Part shown: in pieces, positions 3,811 to 59,173 of the stretch
Position numbering within the stretch: the first letter of the stretch is position 1
How the letters are laid out: every line of letters starts with the position of its first letter
Source of the DNA: a virus
Reading direction: 5' to 3' (one strand)
DNA length: 60,460 nucleotides
IMG/VR virus record: IMGVR_UViG_3300042923_000250
Coordinates: 1 to 60,460 of that record
The notes under the pieces: generated by a model
Databases searched by the model: none
Seen by the model: the letters and a program-made list of their open reading frames with translations, nothing else
What the model was told of the DNA's origin: nothing
Translations under genes and position numbers: made by a program

Positions 3811-4743
3811 ATGGGTGATTTATTCGATGATAAAAATATAAAACCAATGTTAATAGCTGAGCAACAAGAACCCTTTGATTCTGAGGAATATATCTTTGAA
3901 ATTAAGTTTGATGGAATAAGATGTATAGCTTACTTAGGTGATAGCACAGACATTCGAAACAAGAAAGATGTAATGATGGTCCCAAAACTTCCCGAGTTAA
4001 TGAATATTCATGAGCAAATATTACACAAATGTATATTAGACGGAGAGCTAGTTGTTTTAAAGAATGGAGATCCAGATTTTTATGAAATACAACGTAGAGC
4101 AATACTTACAGATAAATTTAAAATTCAACTAGCAGCCAATAAGCTTCCGGCTACATTTATAGCCTATGACATTTTGTATTATAAAGATAAAGAAATATTA
4201 AATATGCCATTGATAGAAAGAAAGCAATTATTACAAATCATTGTAAGAGAGAATGACAGAATTATAGTGTCTAGATATATAGAACAATACGGAACCCAGT
4301 TATACAACATAGTTAAGCAGAAAAAGCTAGAAGGAATTGTGGCAAAGAAAAAAGATAGTAAATACCAGTTAGATAAGAGGTCAAAGCTTTGGATTAAGTG
4401 CAAGATATATAATTCAGTAGATGCTGTAGTTTGCGGATTTATTAGGAACAAAGATGATACAACAAGCATTATAATTGGTCAATATAAAGGTACTAAATTG
4501 GTATATAAGGGACACGTCAAACTTGGCGCAGGAATGAGGTACATTAGCAAACATGGATATAGAAGAATTGACACATCTCCTTTTGGGTATATACCTTATG
4601 GTAGTGAAGATGCAGTTTGGATAGAACCTAATATTGTTTGTTTAATCGAATACATGCCGAGTGACAGAGAAGCAATGAGATTAGCAGTATTTAAAGGAAT
4701 AAGAAAGGATAAAACACCTATGGAATGTCAATCAGATGAATAA
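3811..4743 (+). CDS. ATP-dependent DNA ligase
   Basis: 310 residues, the usual size for a short phage/LigD-type ligase with only the adenylation and OB domains. Motif I is KFDGIR with the nucleotidyl-accepting Lys at about residue 32; motif III is ILDGELV near 75, motif IV EGIVAKKK near 170 and motif V LWIKCK near 189. A C-terminal OB fold follows. It would seal nicks during replication and recombination. It is the last gene of the rightward arm and faces the endolysin across a shared terminator. Confidence 0.95.
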   Translation: MGDLFDDKNIKPMLIAEQQEPFDSEEYIFEIKFDGIRCIAYLGDSTDIRNKKDVMMVPKLPELMNIHEQILHKCILDGELVVLKNGDPDFYEIQRRAILTDKFKIQLAANKLPATFIAYDILYYKDKEILNMPLIERKQLLQIIVRENDRIIVSRYIEQYGTQLYNIVKQKKLEGIVAKKKDSKYQLDKRSKLWIKCKIYNSVDAVVCGFIRNKDDTTSIIIGQYKGTKLVYKGHVKLGAGMRYISKHGYRRIDTSPFGYIPYGSEDAVWIEPNIVCLIEYMPSDREAMRLAVFKGIRKDKTPMECQSDE

Positions 4744-6373: not shown

Positions 6374-6727
6374 CTAAACCATGCCGTATAACATGGAAAT
6401 CATTATTGTTAACTCTCCGACTGCGCTGTCTGTGAATTTTTGCACATCGGCTATTTTTCTTTCAATTGCATCAATGGATATCTCTACTGTATACGTCCCA
6501 TCATCCATATTTTTTGACAACGATTTCAAAGCTATCCCATCAAGATAGGTTGCGAGGATTTCGTTGGACTCTGACAAATATTCAATTCTATCAACTTTAG
6601 AAAAAGCTAATTCGATATCGGCATAAGGCAATACGGATGAAATTGTGAAGCTTCTTTTCTTATCATTAGTGACGATACCATTTGGTACAAGGTCAAAGAT
6701 TTGACTATTTAATGATATTTTTTCCAT
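6374..6727 (-). CDS. Hypothetical tail-module protein (117 aa)
   Basis: Starts MEKISLNSQIFDLVPNG. Alternating beta-strand pattern for the first 90 residues and a helical C-terminus. Proteins of this look lie between tail fibre and lysis genes in Clostridia phages. AGGAGTAA ribosome site. No catalytic motif. Confidence 0.72.
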   Translation of the reverse strand: MEKISLNSQIFDLVPNGIVTNDKKRSFTISSVLPYADIELAFSKVDRIEYLSESNEILATYLDGIALKSLSKNMDDGTYTVEISIDAIERKIADVQKFTDSAVGELTIMISMLYGMV

Positions 6728-6747: not shown

Positions 6748-6772
6748 TAAAAATAAGCCCTCGTGAGGACTT
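6748..6772 (-). terminator. Hairpin terminator after the fibre locus
   Basis: Top-strand AAGCCCT (6755-6761) and AGGACTT (6766-6772) form a 7-bp stem with a 4-base loop; read leftward it is followed by ATTTTT. It closes transcription coming from the tail-fibre gene and lies just outside the left copy of the fibre inverted repeat. Confidence 0.65.
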
Positions 6773-6782
6773 TTCTTAGTGA

Positions 6783-6801
6783 GTTAAATGATAATTTAGC
6801 T
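6783..6801 (+). repeat. Inverted repeat of the fibre inversion segment, left copy
   Basis: TGATAATTTAGCT at 6789-6801 is an exact inverted copy of 7505-7517; extending to 19 bases (6783-6801 against 7505-7523) gives 17 matches. In both copies the repeat encodes DNLA in the same codon phase, so exchange here would swap C-termini in frame. Confidence 0.72.
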
Positions 6802-7119
6802 TGGTCTAACGTAACGCTTACCGGAGTAGCAGGAGTTACTGTAGATGGTACACTGCAGCGCAATGGATATGGATCGTTAAAATACAACCTGTACTTTACA
6901 GGAATAACAGCAGCCGTAAATAGTATTGCATCTATAGCAACACATAATTTGTCGCTTACCGGTTATCCAAGGGTTCTACCTGCTGTAATATTGTCTAGTG
7001 GTGGTAGTATTATTGGTAGTTGCTCTATAATTATTAACACCAATGGTACTGTTTTTGTAGCAACAGATAACACCGCAATAACACCGACGAATACAATTAG
7101 ACTTGGTAACGCTGCATAA
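6790..7119 (+). pseudogene. Silent alternative tail-fibre C-terminus (headless cassette)
   Basis: The frame DNLAWSNVTLTGVAGV... runs to the TAA at 7117-7119 on the strand opposite to every neighbour. The first in-frame start codon is a GTG at 6763 with no ribosome site and with stops just before it, so it is not expected to be translated as it stands. It is Gly/Thr/Ser-rich with beta-strand periodicity, like receptor-binding fibre tips. It faces the C-terminal part of the expressed fibre (stops 16 bases apart), the layout seen in the Mu and P1 invertible fibre loci. I read it as the spare tip. Confidence 0.75.
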
Positions 7120-7135
7120 TCTACCAAATAGCTAT

Positions 7136-7747
7136 TTATGTCGTCATATACGACCCACTAATATAAATATCTGCACTTGCTGGTATCTGAAAGTAACTTG
7201 CAGCACCGCTTTGTATTAAATATAGACGCACCGTGTTACCATAGATTAATGCTTGCAACTCAACCCCTGCAGCAATTGTTATTCCTGTTGCAAATGTCAA
7301 CACGGGGATATCGTTTCCAAAAGCTGCAACAGGTAAACTTCCAATCAGTGTACCTCCCGTGCCTGTGTGCCCTGTCCATTTCACGCGAATGTAAAAATTG
7401 ACTATTTTACCGGCCTTAGAGTAGTATCCGACTTGGTTGACATACGTTGCTACACCGGAAGTTGTTAAACCAGAAACAGTTGGAGTAAACGCAATTCTTT
7501 CAGGAGCTAAATTATCAATTAGCGTATTAATCGCCTGTCCATGTGCATATGTCACTGCAGTACTCGGATATTTGGTAGTATCGTTAATGGCATCAGATTG
7601 TACCATATTTGCTATGGACTGCTTATTCTCGATTTCAGTATCACATGCATCCAGAGCATCGCTTATTTTATTAAGATTAGTAGCATTGAGCGGTGTTGCT
7701 GTAGATGGGCTATTTTGGAACGTTATCTTTATGTATCTCTTTGACAT
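7136..7747 (-). CDS. Tail fibre / receptor-binding protein, currently expressed form
   Basis: 203 residues from the ATG at 7747, which is 8 bases from GGAGG (the ATG at 7753 is too close). Residues 1-75 are the constant part (RYIKITFQNSPSTATPLNATNLNKI..., an N-terminal phrase common in Gram-positive phage fibres). From DNLA (about residue 78) a variable tip begins: PERIAFTPTVSGLTTSG... ending SGSYMTT. An in-frame 13-bp inverted repeat at this boundary matches the silent tip on the other strand. Likely distal host-binding fibre. Confidence 0.8.
   Translation of the reverse strand: MSKRYIKITFQNSPSTATPLNATNLNKISDALDACDTEIENKQSIANMVQSDAINDTTKYPSTAVTYAHGQAINTLIDNLAPERIAFTPTVSGLTTSGVATYVNQVGYYSKAGKIVNFYIRVKWTGHTGTGGTLIGSLPVAAFGNDIPVLTFATGITIAAGVELQALIYGNTVRLYLIQSGAASYFQIPASADIYISGSYMTT
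7505..7523 (-). repeat. Inverted repeat of the fibre inversion segment, right copy
   Basis: Copy inside the expressed tail-fibre gene, about codons 77-81 (IDNLA). Inversion between this and 6783-6801 would turn round about 700 bp and attach the other C-terminus. Confidence 0.72.
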
Positions 7748-7934
7748 CCTCATTGCCTCCTTCCTCGTATGCCTTGCGTTCTGCCTCGATTGTTTGTACG
7801 GCTATTCCGTTCACTTGCGATGATAATTCAAATAATGTCATCTGAGTTATCGCGATAGGCATATTTGCGTCATTTATGACCTTTAAAATTTTCTCTTTCA
7901 TTTCAAATATTTGTAGATTAATACCCTTTGCCAT
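7710..7934 (-). CDS. Small tail-module protein (74 aa)
   Basis: MAKGINLQIFEMKEKILKVIND..., mostly helical and acidic at the C-terminus. AAGGATGTGA ribosome site. It overlaps the fibre start by 38 bases, suggesting coupled translation; a role as fibre chaperone or connector is possible but not shown. Confidence 0.7.
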   Translation of the reverse strand: MAKGINLQIFEMKEKILKVINDANMPIAITQMTLFELSSQVNGIAVQTIEAERKAYEEGGNEDVKEIHKDNVPK

Positions 7935-10538: not shown

Positions 10539-13500
10539 TTATTTTTGAAATGGGTCTTTGCCCGTTTGTTTTCGAAATGCGTCGCTTTCAGTTTTGACAA
10601 GTTTGAAAACGCCTTTTGCATCACCCTCAAGAACAACGGTTGTTTGACCGTTGCCTATATTTGCCATTGCCGGAACCAAAACATTAATCAATGCGCCTTC
10701 AACTGCCGATGCGATACTATTTGTGATTTGGTCGTTATTGGCTACTGCGGTACGATTGCCGATGCGTCCAACCATTTCAGGGATACCGTTTTCTCTTGCG
10801 ATGAATGCTTCTCCTGTGTTGGGAAAGCCTCCTGTTTTGTATCCTTTAGTCTTAGGGATTATCCCTAATGGGTCGGTAGTGTCTATTCCGCTAATATTAA
10901 GCAGTAAATTAGTTGAAAGGCTAACAGTGGGAAGTTTATGGCTCGTTATTTCACTGTCAATCTTGGCGAGCCAACCTTTAACTGATAGCACCGCCGTTCC
11001 GTCACTATCGAAAGCACTCTTATAACCCTTGATAAGATTATTGGCATATCTCGGCATATTATCTTTTTGGTATTCCTCTGACTTGTCCTTGATGGCTTTT
11101 CCAACTGTAAATACAAGCTTCGTTCCTTGCACTTGCAAGTCAGGAATTTTACTTTTAAGTCCATTAATAATGCTTTCATCCAGATCACTACCAGCCGTTT
11201 CACTCGCTGCCAACATTTCTAAATATTCTGGGCTGTCAGCCATTCCCTGTCCAATTAAATAAAGAATTGCGTCTCTATCGCCAGTCAATGCTTTCAAGTT
11301 TGCAATGTCGGTTAGCTGTGAAGATATTCCATCTGGAACTTGTGAGCCAGTTTTTAAAGCATCATCGTATATTTTTTTGTACTGTTCTTCGCTTGGCTCT
11401 AATCCAGCAAGCATTTCATTCAATCCGTCTTTCGTGGCTTGACTCAAACCGCTTTCATCAAGTGCGGATAAGTAATTAAATTCCATTCCATCAACAAGAG
11501 CATTAATTCCTTCCGATGGGTCGGAATTTGTAATTCCGGTTACTATTTCTTCTGTGAAATATGTCTCGGTCTTATCTTTAATATTTCCTTTTGCGCTGGT
11601 TAATTCCGTACCATATTTATCAATCAAACTATCAAGCGAAAACTGCGTGCCATCAAAAGATATCTCTGCTTTAGTTTTTGAAAGATTATTGGTGATTTCC
11701 TTGACAGCAGAATCCCATTCGTTTTGGATTGCTTTCTTTTCGGTAGCCGTGGTTGCGTTTTCCATTTTTAATGAATAAGCGGCGTTAACACTTGCCAAAA
11801 CCGTATAGCTTGCTTCTTCGGCTTTACCTATTCTTTCCCCGATTATCTCTTGAATTTTTGCTGTCAGTTCCTTGAAGCTATCTGGTGTTAAATCACCGTC
11901 AACCGTAATCATTTGTAGCTTTGCTTTAAACTCAGCGTCAGCAACCTTGCTGTTGATTTCTGCTATTTCCTTAATTAAGTTATCAATTGTCTTTTGTTCT
12001 GTCGCATCAATAATTCCATCGGCAAGCGCATTATCCATTTCTGATCTAAGGTCTTTGCCAAGCTGTGCCATTTTATCTTTCGAACCATTGAAATATTCAT
12101 CAACCAATTGAGTAATTTCAGTGTTGAAATTTGCATCATTTATAACCGCATCAATCGCAAGTTTCGTTACATAATGTTGTTGTTCGATATATGCTTCGGA
12201 ATCTGTGATAAACTTTTCTACCGTTGCCCCGTATTCGGCAACTTCCTCCGGCGTTAATTCCAGTCCCACGGAAATTTTCCAATTTAACTTGTTGAGGGCG
12301 TTCACATCATCTGTGATGCTTGTTTCTAGTTCATCAAGTTTTGCCTTCTCCGAGATATAAACATCTAATTTTGCAGAATACTCAGTATCGGTAATTCGCT
12401 GTGCGACTTTTTCCATTTCTTCCATGGAAAGTTGAATATCTCCAAACCTTGAAGCCAAGTCTTCTTCAACGAGTTTCTTGTTGTATTCTTTCACGGCTTC
12501 ATAAATCAATATAATTGCACCAACTGCAAGAGCAGCGATTCCGGCGGGTCCAAGATGGAATTTTCCTATTGCTGTTGCTAACTCTCCAAACCATGTGACA
12601 ACTTTATATGTAACAAAGGCTGCTCCGATTGCTTTTAAAATAGGAGAAATTTTATCCATAGTGTCAACGAACGCCTGTATCTTTGGCTGTATTTTATCCG
12701 CTAATTCTTCGGCTTTATTTTTCATATTTGCCAACTCTTCATTGAATTTCGCCATATATGAAGTTGTTTTGTCATTAATAGCATTATCTAATTCGCCATA
12801 TCCCGACCCAACATCAAGCTTTATCCCCTTAGACTTTCCACTCGATAAAATATTCAATTCATCAAAACTCATAAGGGATTTTTTTAAACTGTCAACGGAG
12901 TCCTTAGCTTCATCTGCACCGTCGCCAATACCTTCGATATCGCCCGTGACATCGGTATAAATATTAGTGTCAGTATAGTCGGGCAACTCAAATCCCATGG
13001 CTGTAGCGAGAGTATCCACCATTCTGCGGAGCGCAATTACTAAAGCGTTTATATAAGGAAGAACAGTAGTGACGATGGGTAAAAATACATTACCTATAGA
13101 ACGAGTTAGATTAACCCATTGTTGTTGTAGGATTCGCAATTGGTTAGCTGGGGAATCGATTGTTTTAGCCATATCGCCGAATGCAACCTCAGCTTGATCC
13201 ATGATTGACAGCCATCTTAATTGAACTTTGGCAGCTTGACTCATATTTTCAACTGAGTCCTTAATTCCATAATTCAAAGCGGTCATTTCGAGGGACGTTT
13301 GAGATATGTCAATGCCTAATGTACGAAGCGGTCTAATCTGTCCAGCAAGTCCACTTTGTAACTTTTTCATTGCATCATCCGTATCAATATTCCATAACGA
13401 CGCAATATCATTTCCAAGCAGAGTAAACGACTCTGATATATTCATAGCAGAATTTGCTACCAAACCCATAGAATTAGACATCTGAGCGAATACCGCTTGA

Positions 13501-47361: not shown

Positions 47362-47562
47362 ATGGCATTAGATAAAATCAAAGAAATTGCACGGCTGCTT
47401 GATGGCAAGGGTGAAATTCTCATTAGGAACGACGTGGTGAGCGGCGTATGGTATGTACATTGTTGGTGGGAGGATGGATACAGAGATATTCATAATCAAT
47501 TTACGCCAAATCTAGATAAGACACTTGACTTAATTATAGAAAAATTAGGAGGTACCGAATGA
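47362..47562 (+). CDS. Hypothetical protein (66 aa)
   Basis: MALDKIKEIARLLDGKGEILIRNDVVSGVWYVHCWWEDGYRD..., small alpha/beta protein. AGAGGA upstream. Its stop overlaps the recT start by ATGA. Function unknown. Confidence 0.68.
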   Translation: MALDKIKEIARLLDGKGEILIRNDVVSGVWYVHCWWEDGYRDIHNQFTPNLDKTLDLIIEKLGGTE

Positions 47563-48566
47563 CCAAAAAAAACGAAGTAACCACCCAACAACACACCACC
47601 GAATTATCCCCAAGTGCTAAATTTTCAACCTACGCACTAAAGGAATTTGCATCACAAGTCGGAGGAGAAGTCAACGCTACACAATATCAAACTTCCCTCA
47701 TGCAAGGTTATTTTATAGGGATTGATAGAGCATTAAGAATAGCTGACGAAAGGCGAATAACCAAAAATGAAACCAACACCAATAAAGCCTATAACAACGA
47801 CTTACCTATCACATGGAATACGATCAAATTAAACGAAACCGTCCTTGATGCTGTCCACTACGCAAAAATGGGATTGGATATGCTGCAGCCGAACCACTTA
47901 ACAGTAATTCCTTATAAGGACAAAAAAACCAATAAATATGATATTACCTTCATAAAGGGTTATGCCGGAATCCAATACATAGCTGAAAAATACGCATTGG
48001 ACAAGCCCAAGGACGTAACCACCGAATTAGTTTATTCCACTGATGTGTTTAAGCCTGTTAAAAAGAATGCTGTCAATGCAGTCGAATCCTACGAGTTTGA
48101 AATTATCAATCCGTTTGACCGTGGAAAAGTAATCGGGGGCTTCGGATACATACAATACGACGACCCCACCAAAAACAAACTAATCATCATGACCATGAAG
48201 GATATCGAAAAACGCAAACCGAAATTTGCTTCTGCTGAATTCTGGGGCGGTACGAAAATCGAATATCAGAACGGTAAAAAGGTTGAAGTCGAAACAGATG
48301 GATGGTTCGAAGAGATGTGTATGAAGACTCTAAAACGATATGTGTATGGTGAAAAATTCATTGAAACTGACCCTATGAAAGTTGATGAAAATTACCAATA
48401 TATGAAGATAGCGGAGTCCCGATATGTGGAACTTGAAACCAAAGCTATTATCGATGAACAAGCCAATACGGAAGAATTTGAAATGCCTGAGAGTGAGTCA
48501 GAAAAAGAAACTGTCAGAGCGGAAGTAGTTGAACCTGAGCAATCAGTATTCGAACAGGAGGAATAA
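47559..48566 (+). CDS. recT: RecT-family single-strand annealing protein
   Basis: 335 residues. FIGIDRALRIADERR, LDAVHYAKMGLDMLQPNHLTVIPYKDKK and FIKGYAGIQYIAEKY are the RecT core; the acidic C-terminal tail is usual. It anneals complementary single strands during phage recombination. The MBL-fold gene two genes on is the usual partner in Gram-positive phages. Confidence 0.93.
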   Translation: MTKKNEVTTQQHTTELSPSAKFSTYALKEFASQVGGEVNATQYQTSLMQGYFIGIDRALRIADERRITKNETNTNKAYNNDLPITWNTIKLNETVLDAVHYAKMGLDMLQPNHLTVIPYKDKKTNKYDITFIKGYAGIQYIAEKYALDKPKDVTTELVYSTDVFKPVKKNAVNAVESYEFEIINPFDRGKVIGGFGYIQYDDPTKNKLIIMTMKDIEKRKPKFASAEFWGGTKIEYQNGKKVEVETDGWFEEMCMKTLKRYVYGEKFIETDPMKVDENYQYMKIAESRYVELETKAIIDEQANTEEFEMPESESEKETVRAEVVEPEQSVFEQEE

Positions 48567-58180: not shown

Positions 58181-59173
58181 ATGTTACAGATACTTGAATT
58201 ATTCGGAGGTATAGGAAGTCCAAGGGTAGCACTAAGGAATATTGGCGTTCCGGTAAAATCTATTGATTATGTGGAAATAGATGAAAAGGCGGTTCGGTCA
58301 TACAATGCAATGTTTGCAAATGAGCTAACGCATAAAACTCAATCAGTAGTCGGATGGAATTTAATGCCGGATATTCTCATTCATGGATCGCCTTGCCAGA
58401 CATTTTCAATTGCCGGAAAGCAAACAGGGGCAGACGAGGGTAGTGGAACAACATCAAGCCTTATGTGGGAAACTATACATATCATTCAACAGATGGGTAC
58501 ATGGAAGCCTAGATTTGTTATTTGGGAGAATGTTAAGAATGTTTTGAGCAAACATATGATACATAATTTCAATCGCTATTTAAGCGAAATGGAAGCTTTA
58601 GGGTATACAAATAGTTTCGAAATATTAGACGCGAGAGAGTTCGGCCTACCTCAGGGGAGAGAAAGAGTATTTACTATTAGTTGTTTAGATAAAACACATT
58701 TCAGGTTTGATAATTTAATACGAACACCCATGAGGCACATACTCGAATTTCTACAACAAAACAATGAGGTAAGTGATATATATACACTCACTCAGCCAAG
58801 CATGCTCAACAAGATTAATTATCAAGGAAAAGACTTTAGCGGGCTAGAAATAATAAAAGATCAGTGCAAAACAATTACATGTAAACAGCTTAGGTGCCCA
58901 AACAGCGGAATAATCGATTTGGGTAATGGAAAATACAGATTACTCACAGAGCTTGAATGTTGGAGATTACAAGGATATTCAGACGAAGATTATTGCAATG
59001 CATTAAAGGTTAATCCGAGTCAGCCAGGGAAAATGAATGGCGCAATGTATAAGCAAGCCGGAAACTCTATACCGGTACCGATATTTGAAAGTATTTTCCG
59101 AAAAATTATTCTAGGAGAAACACAAGGACAGCTCACAGGGCAAATGTCAATCACTGATTGGCTAACAATTTAG
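58181..59173 (+). CDS. DNA cytosine-5 methyltransferase
   Basis: 330 residues with all main motifs: ILELFGGIGSPRVAL (I), GSPCQTFSIAGKQ with the catalytic Cys at about residue 72 (IV), FVIWENVKNV (VI), ILDAREFGLPQGRERVF (VIII) and a C-terminal QAGNSIPVPIFESI-type motif X. The target recognition part is short. No partner restriction gene is present, so it probably protects phage DNA from host restriction. Recognition sequence unknown. Confidence 0.93.
   Translation: MLQILELFGGIGSPRVALRNIGVPVKSIDYVEIDEKAVRSYNAMFANELTHKTQSVVGWNLMPDILIHGSPCQTFSIAGKQTGADEGSGTTSSLMWETIHIIQQMGTWKPRFVIWENVKNVLSKHMIHNFNRYLSEMEALGYTNSFEILDAREFGLPQGRERVFTISCLDKTHFRFDNLIRTPMRHILEFLQQNNEVSDIYTLTQPSMLNKINYQGKDFSGLEIIKDQCKTITCKQLRCPNSGIIDLGNGKYRLLTELECWRLQGYSDEDYCNALKVNPSQPGKMNGAMYKQAGNSIPVPIFESIFRKIILGETQGQLTGQMSITDWLTI

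Follow-up and report, generated by a model that had tools for sequence, protein, structure and literature searches.

Organization of the Fiber Locus

The window, that is, the whole 60,460-nucleotide stretch of viral DNA analyzed here (IMG/VR record IMGVR_UViG_3300042923_000250, positions 1 to 60,460), carries a leftward tail-fiber gene that converges with a headless open frame on the opposite strand. The features of this module, together with its neighbors and the integrase gene of the same record, are as follows.

6374-6727, minus strand: 117-aa protein on the downstream side of the module, conserved in the related loci L002 and L006
6755-6772, minus strand: hairpin resembling a terminator (AAGTCCTCACGAGGGCTT followed by ATTTTTAT), also present in L002 and L006
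6784-6801, plus strand: putative inversion site heading the silent tip, TTAAATGATAATTTAGCT, reading L-N-D-N-L-A
6790-7119, plus strand: silent alternative tip (about 110 aa), encoded by an open frame that has no start codon
7126-7137, no strand: perfect 12-bp palindrome AAATAGCTATTT between and over both convergent stops, also found in L002, L006, and L119
7136-7753, minus strand: expressed fiber, or receptor-binding protein, with a constant N-terminus (7523-7753) and the current tip (7136-7522)
7505-7522, minus strand: putative inversion site within the expressed fiber gene, CTAATTGATAATTTAGCT on the coding strand, reading L-I-D-N-L-A
7710-7934, minus strand: 74-aa protein upstream of the fiber, which adjoins the module also in L002, L006, and L031
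34870-36324, minus strand: large serine integrase of 484 aa (PHROG 95 integrase; PF00239, PF07508, and PF13408)

The present fiber has 205 aa, and an ATG at 7747 is an equally possible start of its ORF. It matched PHROG 2012 "minor tail protein" (1.5e-7) and PHROG 28473 "tail fiber" (4e-4), and a search of phage records returned distant minor tail proteins only, with no close relative. The open frame on the other strand, which spans 6757-7119(+) in full, holds no ATG, and its sole start-like codon, GTG at 6763, lies inside the hairpin; from its sequence, the silent tip would need inversion for expression. Neither a PHROG nor a Pfam family matched this tip, and no homologue was present in the viral contigs or phage records searched. 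A preliminary description had reported a fiber and a headless opposite-strand cassette converging with stops 16 bp apart, which is borne out by the ORFs 7136-7753(-) and 6790-7119(+). It had also expected inversion to fuse the constant N-terminus to the other tip, and joining the arms by script indeed gave an open 188-aa fiber bearing that tip. As the hairpin is positioned directly outside the invertible segment, fiber transcription would stop at it whichever way the segment is turned.

The palindrome AAATAGCTATTT, of which a near-identical version occurs in L031, may serve as a third, symmetric site of the recombinase type, or it may just be a stop that works in both directions. Mid-point palindromes of the AAATAGCTATTT or AAATGATCATTT kind, with recombinase-like AAAT/ATTT arms, were observed at 7126-7137 of the window, at 8660-8675 of L030, and at 915-925 of L052; in loci with a linked recombinase the palindrome is usually AAATGATCATTT-like and occupies the same place. 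Elsewhere, the window encodes an ATP-dependent DNA ligase (3811-4743), a RecT annealing protein (47559-48566, PF03837), and a phage-borne C5-cytosine methyltransferase (58181-59173, PF00145). No reverse transcriptase was noticed among the Pfam-scanned proteins of the window.

The Inverted Sites

The two arms form a 13-bp exact inverted repeat (6789-6801 and 7505-7517), which agrees at 17 of 19 positions when extended to 6783-6801 and 7505-7523, as previously described, and further at 21 of 26 positions over 6776-6801 and 7505-7530. Both arms read D-N-L-A in equal codon phase, and the synonymous codons GAT AAT TTA GCT are identical in the two, whereas the left halves of the sites are unlike (TTAAAT and CTAATT). 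With up to three mismatches allowed, the site sequence occurs at only three places in the window.

A detector that looks for convergent open frames carrying an inverted repeat of 11 bp or more in the same codon phase returned the module as its sole match in the 60,460 bases, and gave no match on 20 triplet shuffles, which also destroy long frames. In other viral loci, 399,879 bases in total, the detector had four matches of at least 13 bp. L107 (which is the L002 locus), L119, and L125 are loci with the same TAAAT-N4-ATTTA site form, and the remaining match, L099, is of low complexity, so the expected number of false hits is about 0.15 per 60 kb.

Conservation of the Module in Related Loci

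Nine related fiber loci show the whole anatomy: L002, L006, L119, L031 in genome G170, L032 in G209, L030 and L046 in G050, L050, and L051. The site form common to them is TAAAT-N4-ATTTA, always read L-N-x-N/D-L. This recurrence removes the remaining doubt about the observation, which is confirmed; rather than falling at random in relatives, the site keeps a constant position and codon phase in all nine loci. In L002 and L006, the gene order is likewise a 74-aa protein (80 and 68% identical to that of the window, respectively), the fiber, a convergent headless tip, and a protein of about 115 aa. The fiber N-terminus is 67% identical to that of the window in L002 and 61% identical in L006, and the tips are unlike. 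The arms of L002 are two copies of TAAATAATAATTTA, those of L006 follow A/TAAATG(A/T)TAATTTA with one core mismatch, and those of L119, a virus from the sample set of L002 (IMG 3300042934), are CTAAATGATAATTTA and TTAAATGATAATTTA.

A search of 397 genomes placed L031, L032, L030, and L046 in Lachnospiraceae prophages. The pattern scan of these genomes was too unspecific alone, with similar control counts, and only alternating or clustered groups of sites were taken further. In every module of the orphan kind seen, that is, without an adjoining recombinase gene, the silent frame is open and start-less, and the two tips of L032 remain full alternatives, at 45% identity. The module was not seen in the frames and repeats of the distant relatives L003, L004, L007, and L008, nor in regions where G033, G092, G108, G022, and G175 have additional site-like words. 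The detector likewise found none in L055-L060, human fecal phage records with relatives of the recombinase P0003 (see below). A collagen-like fiber gene with an orphan tip module was observed at 3050-6121 of L140 (G344:C1), and a second, displaced module copy lies about 6.5 kb away (11771-12649), near two serine recombinase genes.

Inversion and Tip Exchange in Relatives

Genome G050 carries two related prophage loci.

L030, 8278-10716: four-site fiber-tip shufflon with an internal tyrosine recombinase
L046, 8487-10820: four-site fiber-tip shufflon with an internal tyrosine recombinase

L030 has three silent tips, with the tyrosine-recombinase gene P0003 within the locus, and the recombinase of L046, in the second prophage, is 99% identical to it. 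Between L046 and L030, the segment from the third to the fourth site is inverted (98.8% identity, minus strand), and the flanks are collinear. Similarly, the DNA of L050 and L051 is 99% identical outside the sites, with unrelated tips exactly between them. In relatives with a linked recombinase, the module is a shufflon whose inversion is visible.

In G344, the modules are of the orphan type, as in the window. At the ends of contigs C8 and C10, two unrelated fiber N-termini lead into identical DNA from the first base of TAAATAATAATTTA on; the two contigs have 77 bp in common, and their upstream DNA is unrelated. Five contig ends of this genome (the starts of C8, C10, and C13 and the ends of C24 and C56) lie 63-64 bases past the TAAATAATAATTTA site and look as if the assembly had branched at such sites.

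No flipped copy of the window module was present in the viral, phage, and genome collections searched. The orphan modules that could be compared (L117 with L125, and the two modules of L140) have the same orientation, and a tip-versus-tip comparison of orphan loci gave no orientation swap. The flipped arrangement, to be looked for in relatives according to the preliminary description, is seen in L046 versus L030 but in none of the comparable orphan modules. Together, the nine loci and the inversion in relatives with the same site form support the earlier reading of the locus as an invertible tail-fiber tip.

Recombinases and Chromosomal hsdS Shufflons

As stated in the preliminary description, the record has no small invertase. 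Its one PF00239 match is the large serine integrase, the only site-specific recombinase found, and the 60-kb record gave no match to PF00589 (tyrosine recombinase) or to P0003-like or L203-like recombinases. The integrase is not thought to act at the fiber module. In relatives, the enzyme linked to TAAAT-N4-ATTTA sites is a tyrosine recombinase in each case. Its gene adjoins the fiber in L030, L046, L190, and L184, and in G344 it is found at C10:26199, on one contig with the fiber end at C10:64. The fiber-linked tyrosine recombinase of L184 (G268) goes with a GATA core, so that a co-resident prophage is an alternative source of the enzyme. At 2928-6472 of L184, a fiber-like gene and an opposite-strand copy were observed 3.3 kb apart with the tyrosine recombinase between them, and the two have 26 bp in common from TGATAATTTA on.

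The same site form was also found in chromosomal loci of Lachnospiraceae.

L137, 2626-7573 (G291:C88): hsdS shufflon with a linked PsrA-like recombinase
L207, L208, L209, and L210: hsdS shufflons with a linked PsrA-like recombinase

In G291, four sites CTAAATGATGATTTA surround the tyrosine recombinase P0004 in an hsdM-hsdS locus. This four-site match was rejected as a fiber shufflon, and its recognition as hsdM/hsdS gave rise to the host-enzyme hypothesis. P0003 from the fiber locus and P0004 from the hsdS locus, both PF00589 proteins, are 38% identical over their whole length, and their family is represented in 66 of the 397 genomes at E<=1e-30. The hsdS inversion sites of G106, G395, G107, and G033 are TAAATGATAATTTA, reading I/V-N-D-N-L in HsdS, and agree with the phage L-N-D-N-L site in bases, strand sense, and codon phase. 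The longest match to the window cassette site, taken with its preceding G, is 18 of 18 bp at the hsdS site of G106 (GTTAAATGATAATTTAGC; L207, near 3637), and 16 bp are common to the cassette site and the hsdS sites of G395, G107, and G033. Genome-wide, the searched 14-mer was located at the hsdS locus only in G106, G395, G042, G275, and G098, which indicates that the site is specific.

In the recombinase tree, the hsdS enzymes form one clade and the enzymes of AGTG-site fiber loci another. The orphan fiber cores, GATA and AATA, match cores of the hsdS clade rather than AGTG, the core of the main phage clade. The earlier suggestion that a host enzyme may invert the module is plausible and, through the 18-bp identity, now specific, but G170 and G209, which carry orphan modules, have no close recombinase of the P0003/P0004 family at E<=1e-30, only distant tyrosine recombinases. 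No report tying fiber switches to hsdS-type sites was found in the openly accessible literature.

Proposed Mechanism and Alternative Explanations

We propose that the module is probably an orphan two-state switch by which a temperate phage inverts its receptor-binding tip, with a PsrA-like tyrosine recombinase acting on it in trans. A PsrA/Rin-like enzyme of this class would bind the quasi-palindromic TAAAT-N4-ATTTA sites at 6784-6801 and 7505-7522, and recombination in the 4-bp core (GATA) would invert about 0.72 kb, so that the constant fiber N-terminus would be fused in frame with the alternative tip; transcription would still stop after inversion at the terminator beyond the segment. The enzyme that may act in trans on the window module would be supplied by a host hsdS invertase or by a co-resident prophage. 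The window copy is thus expected to invert, and its two tips would recognize different receptors. The phage host would be a member of the Lachnospiraceae, judging from the relatives only.

It is rather unlikely that the module is invertible but served by a recombinase of the phage itself, either one encoded outside the record or the large serine integrase. Relatives often carry a recombinase beside the fiber (L030, L046, L190, and L184) or elsewhere on the contig (G344), and the window record may be incomplete, which leaves room for a phage-borne enzyme outside it. However, the relative G001 resembles the window record in giving no PF00589, P0003-like, or L203-like match, G004 likewise gives no P0003/L203-like match and no PF00239 match of any kind, and the integrase is of a class unrelated to the tyrosine recombinases linked to this site form.

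Unlikely, too, is a frozen relic of an ancestor with a linked recombinase, in which inversion has been lost and the silent tip is left over. The record without an enzyme, the non-identical site arms of the window, and the uniform orientation of comparable orphan modules would all fit such a relic. Against it stand a silent frame that is open and lacks a start in all orphan modules seen, the agreement of the site arms at synonymous positions, the full-length alternatives kept in L032, and the unrelated N-termini that meet identical tips exactly at the site in the orphan-type G344.

A small serine invertase of the Gin/Cin/Min type, supplied by the host or another prophage, would give the equal genetic outcome of a constant part with two tips. 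This explanation is very improbable and was rejected on site form and enzyme class, as neither the record nor the relative G001 has a small serine invertase, and the sites are TAAAT-N4-ATTTA with tyrosine recombinases as the linked enzymes in relatives. Of the earlier analogy with Mu and P1, the outcome stands and the machinery does not, since both the sites and the enzymes linked to them in relatives are of the PsrA/Rin-like tyrosine-recombinase family. Repeats of 13-19 bp are too short for ordinary homologous recombination. For all the shortness of the repeat and the chance matches expected per 60 kb, it is scarcely credible that the repeat arose by chance between unrelated genes, or that homologous recombination alone exchanged the cassettes, given at least nine loci that repeat the site form, position, and codon phase, and given the inversion in relatives.

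Returning to a tyrosine recombinase acting in trans, the acting enzyme is perhaps the host's hsdS invertase, as the site sequences suggest. We tentatively raise the further possibility that one host enzyme switches both type I restriction specificity and prophage receptor specificity, via a copy of the hsdS site in the fiber gene. If true, a hijacked invertase would couple the host defense phase with phage host range, and the phage would be borrowing the phase-variation machinery of its host. An orphan switch with host hsdS-type sites predicts that the enzyme re-targeting restriction also re-targets the fiber. Invertible receptor tips explain how more than one host option stays available to temperate phages. 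In addition, inverted pairs of TAAAT-N4-ATTTA, read in frame as L-N-x-N/D-L at convergent open frames, provide a simple sequence rule by which such switches can be sought in unannotated gut viromes. Overall, the interpretation in the preliminary description is partly to largely supported, though another class of enzyme takes the place of the one named there.

Comparison with Known Systems

The Mu gin, P1 cin, and p15B min systems are alike in exchanging fiber tips in frame by inversion, but they depend on a serine enzyme and hix/gix-type sites, whereas the window has no small serine invertase. Closer in enzyme class are the PsrA-type tyrosine recombinases, which invert the phase-variable type I restriction gene hsdS at the cod locus of S. 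pneumoniae (PMC4948785, PMC7096588); in vitro, PsrA acts at a 15-bp repeat to invert hsdS segments (PMC7096588). The Lachnospiraceae hsdS shufflons share with the window the same 14-18 bp site and the codon phase, they too have headless alternative parts, in their case of HsdS, and their recombinase is homologous to the fiber recombinases. The window differs from a PsrA-type hsdS shufflon in that its target is a fiber, with neither a recombinase nor hsdM adjoining.

The Lachnospiraceae prophage fiber shufflons (L030, L046, L048-L052, and L190) resemble the window in site form, codon phase, convergent headless tips, and mid-point palindrome, and are unlike it in having more cassettes (four sites in L030), an AGTG core, and the recombinase gene inside the locus. 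Of the features of a Rin-type RBP shufflon, the window has the constant N-terminus with alternative tips and the in-frame inverted sites heading the tips; a flanking tyrosine invertase is absent from the window and present in L030, L046, and L190.

In Bifidobacterium phages, besides the Rin shufflon, a second inverted locus without a recombinase was described in phages 689b-1/Bb423phi2, and an enzyme acting in trans was proposed to flip it (Mavrich et al., 2018; PMC6109161). This recombinase-less locus is a precedent for the orphan form. The Rin shufflon and the systems of Eggerthella lenta clade 1 prophages (PMC8778435) resemble the window in a constant receptor-binding N-terminus with alternative C-terminal tips, in short crossover sites, and in tyrosine-recombinase logic. 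Their crossover sequences are TTCCCTAACCC, CAGGGTTA, and ttccgtat, as against TAAAT-N4-ATTTA here, and, compared with the Bifidobacterium and Eggerthella systems, it is only in the window that site identity points to a candidate family for the enzyme acting in trans.
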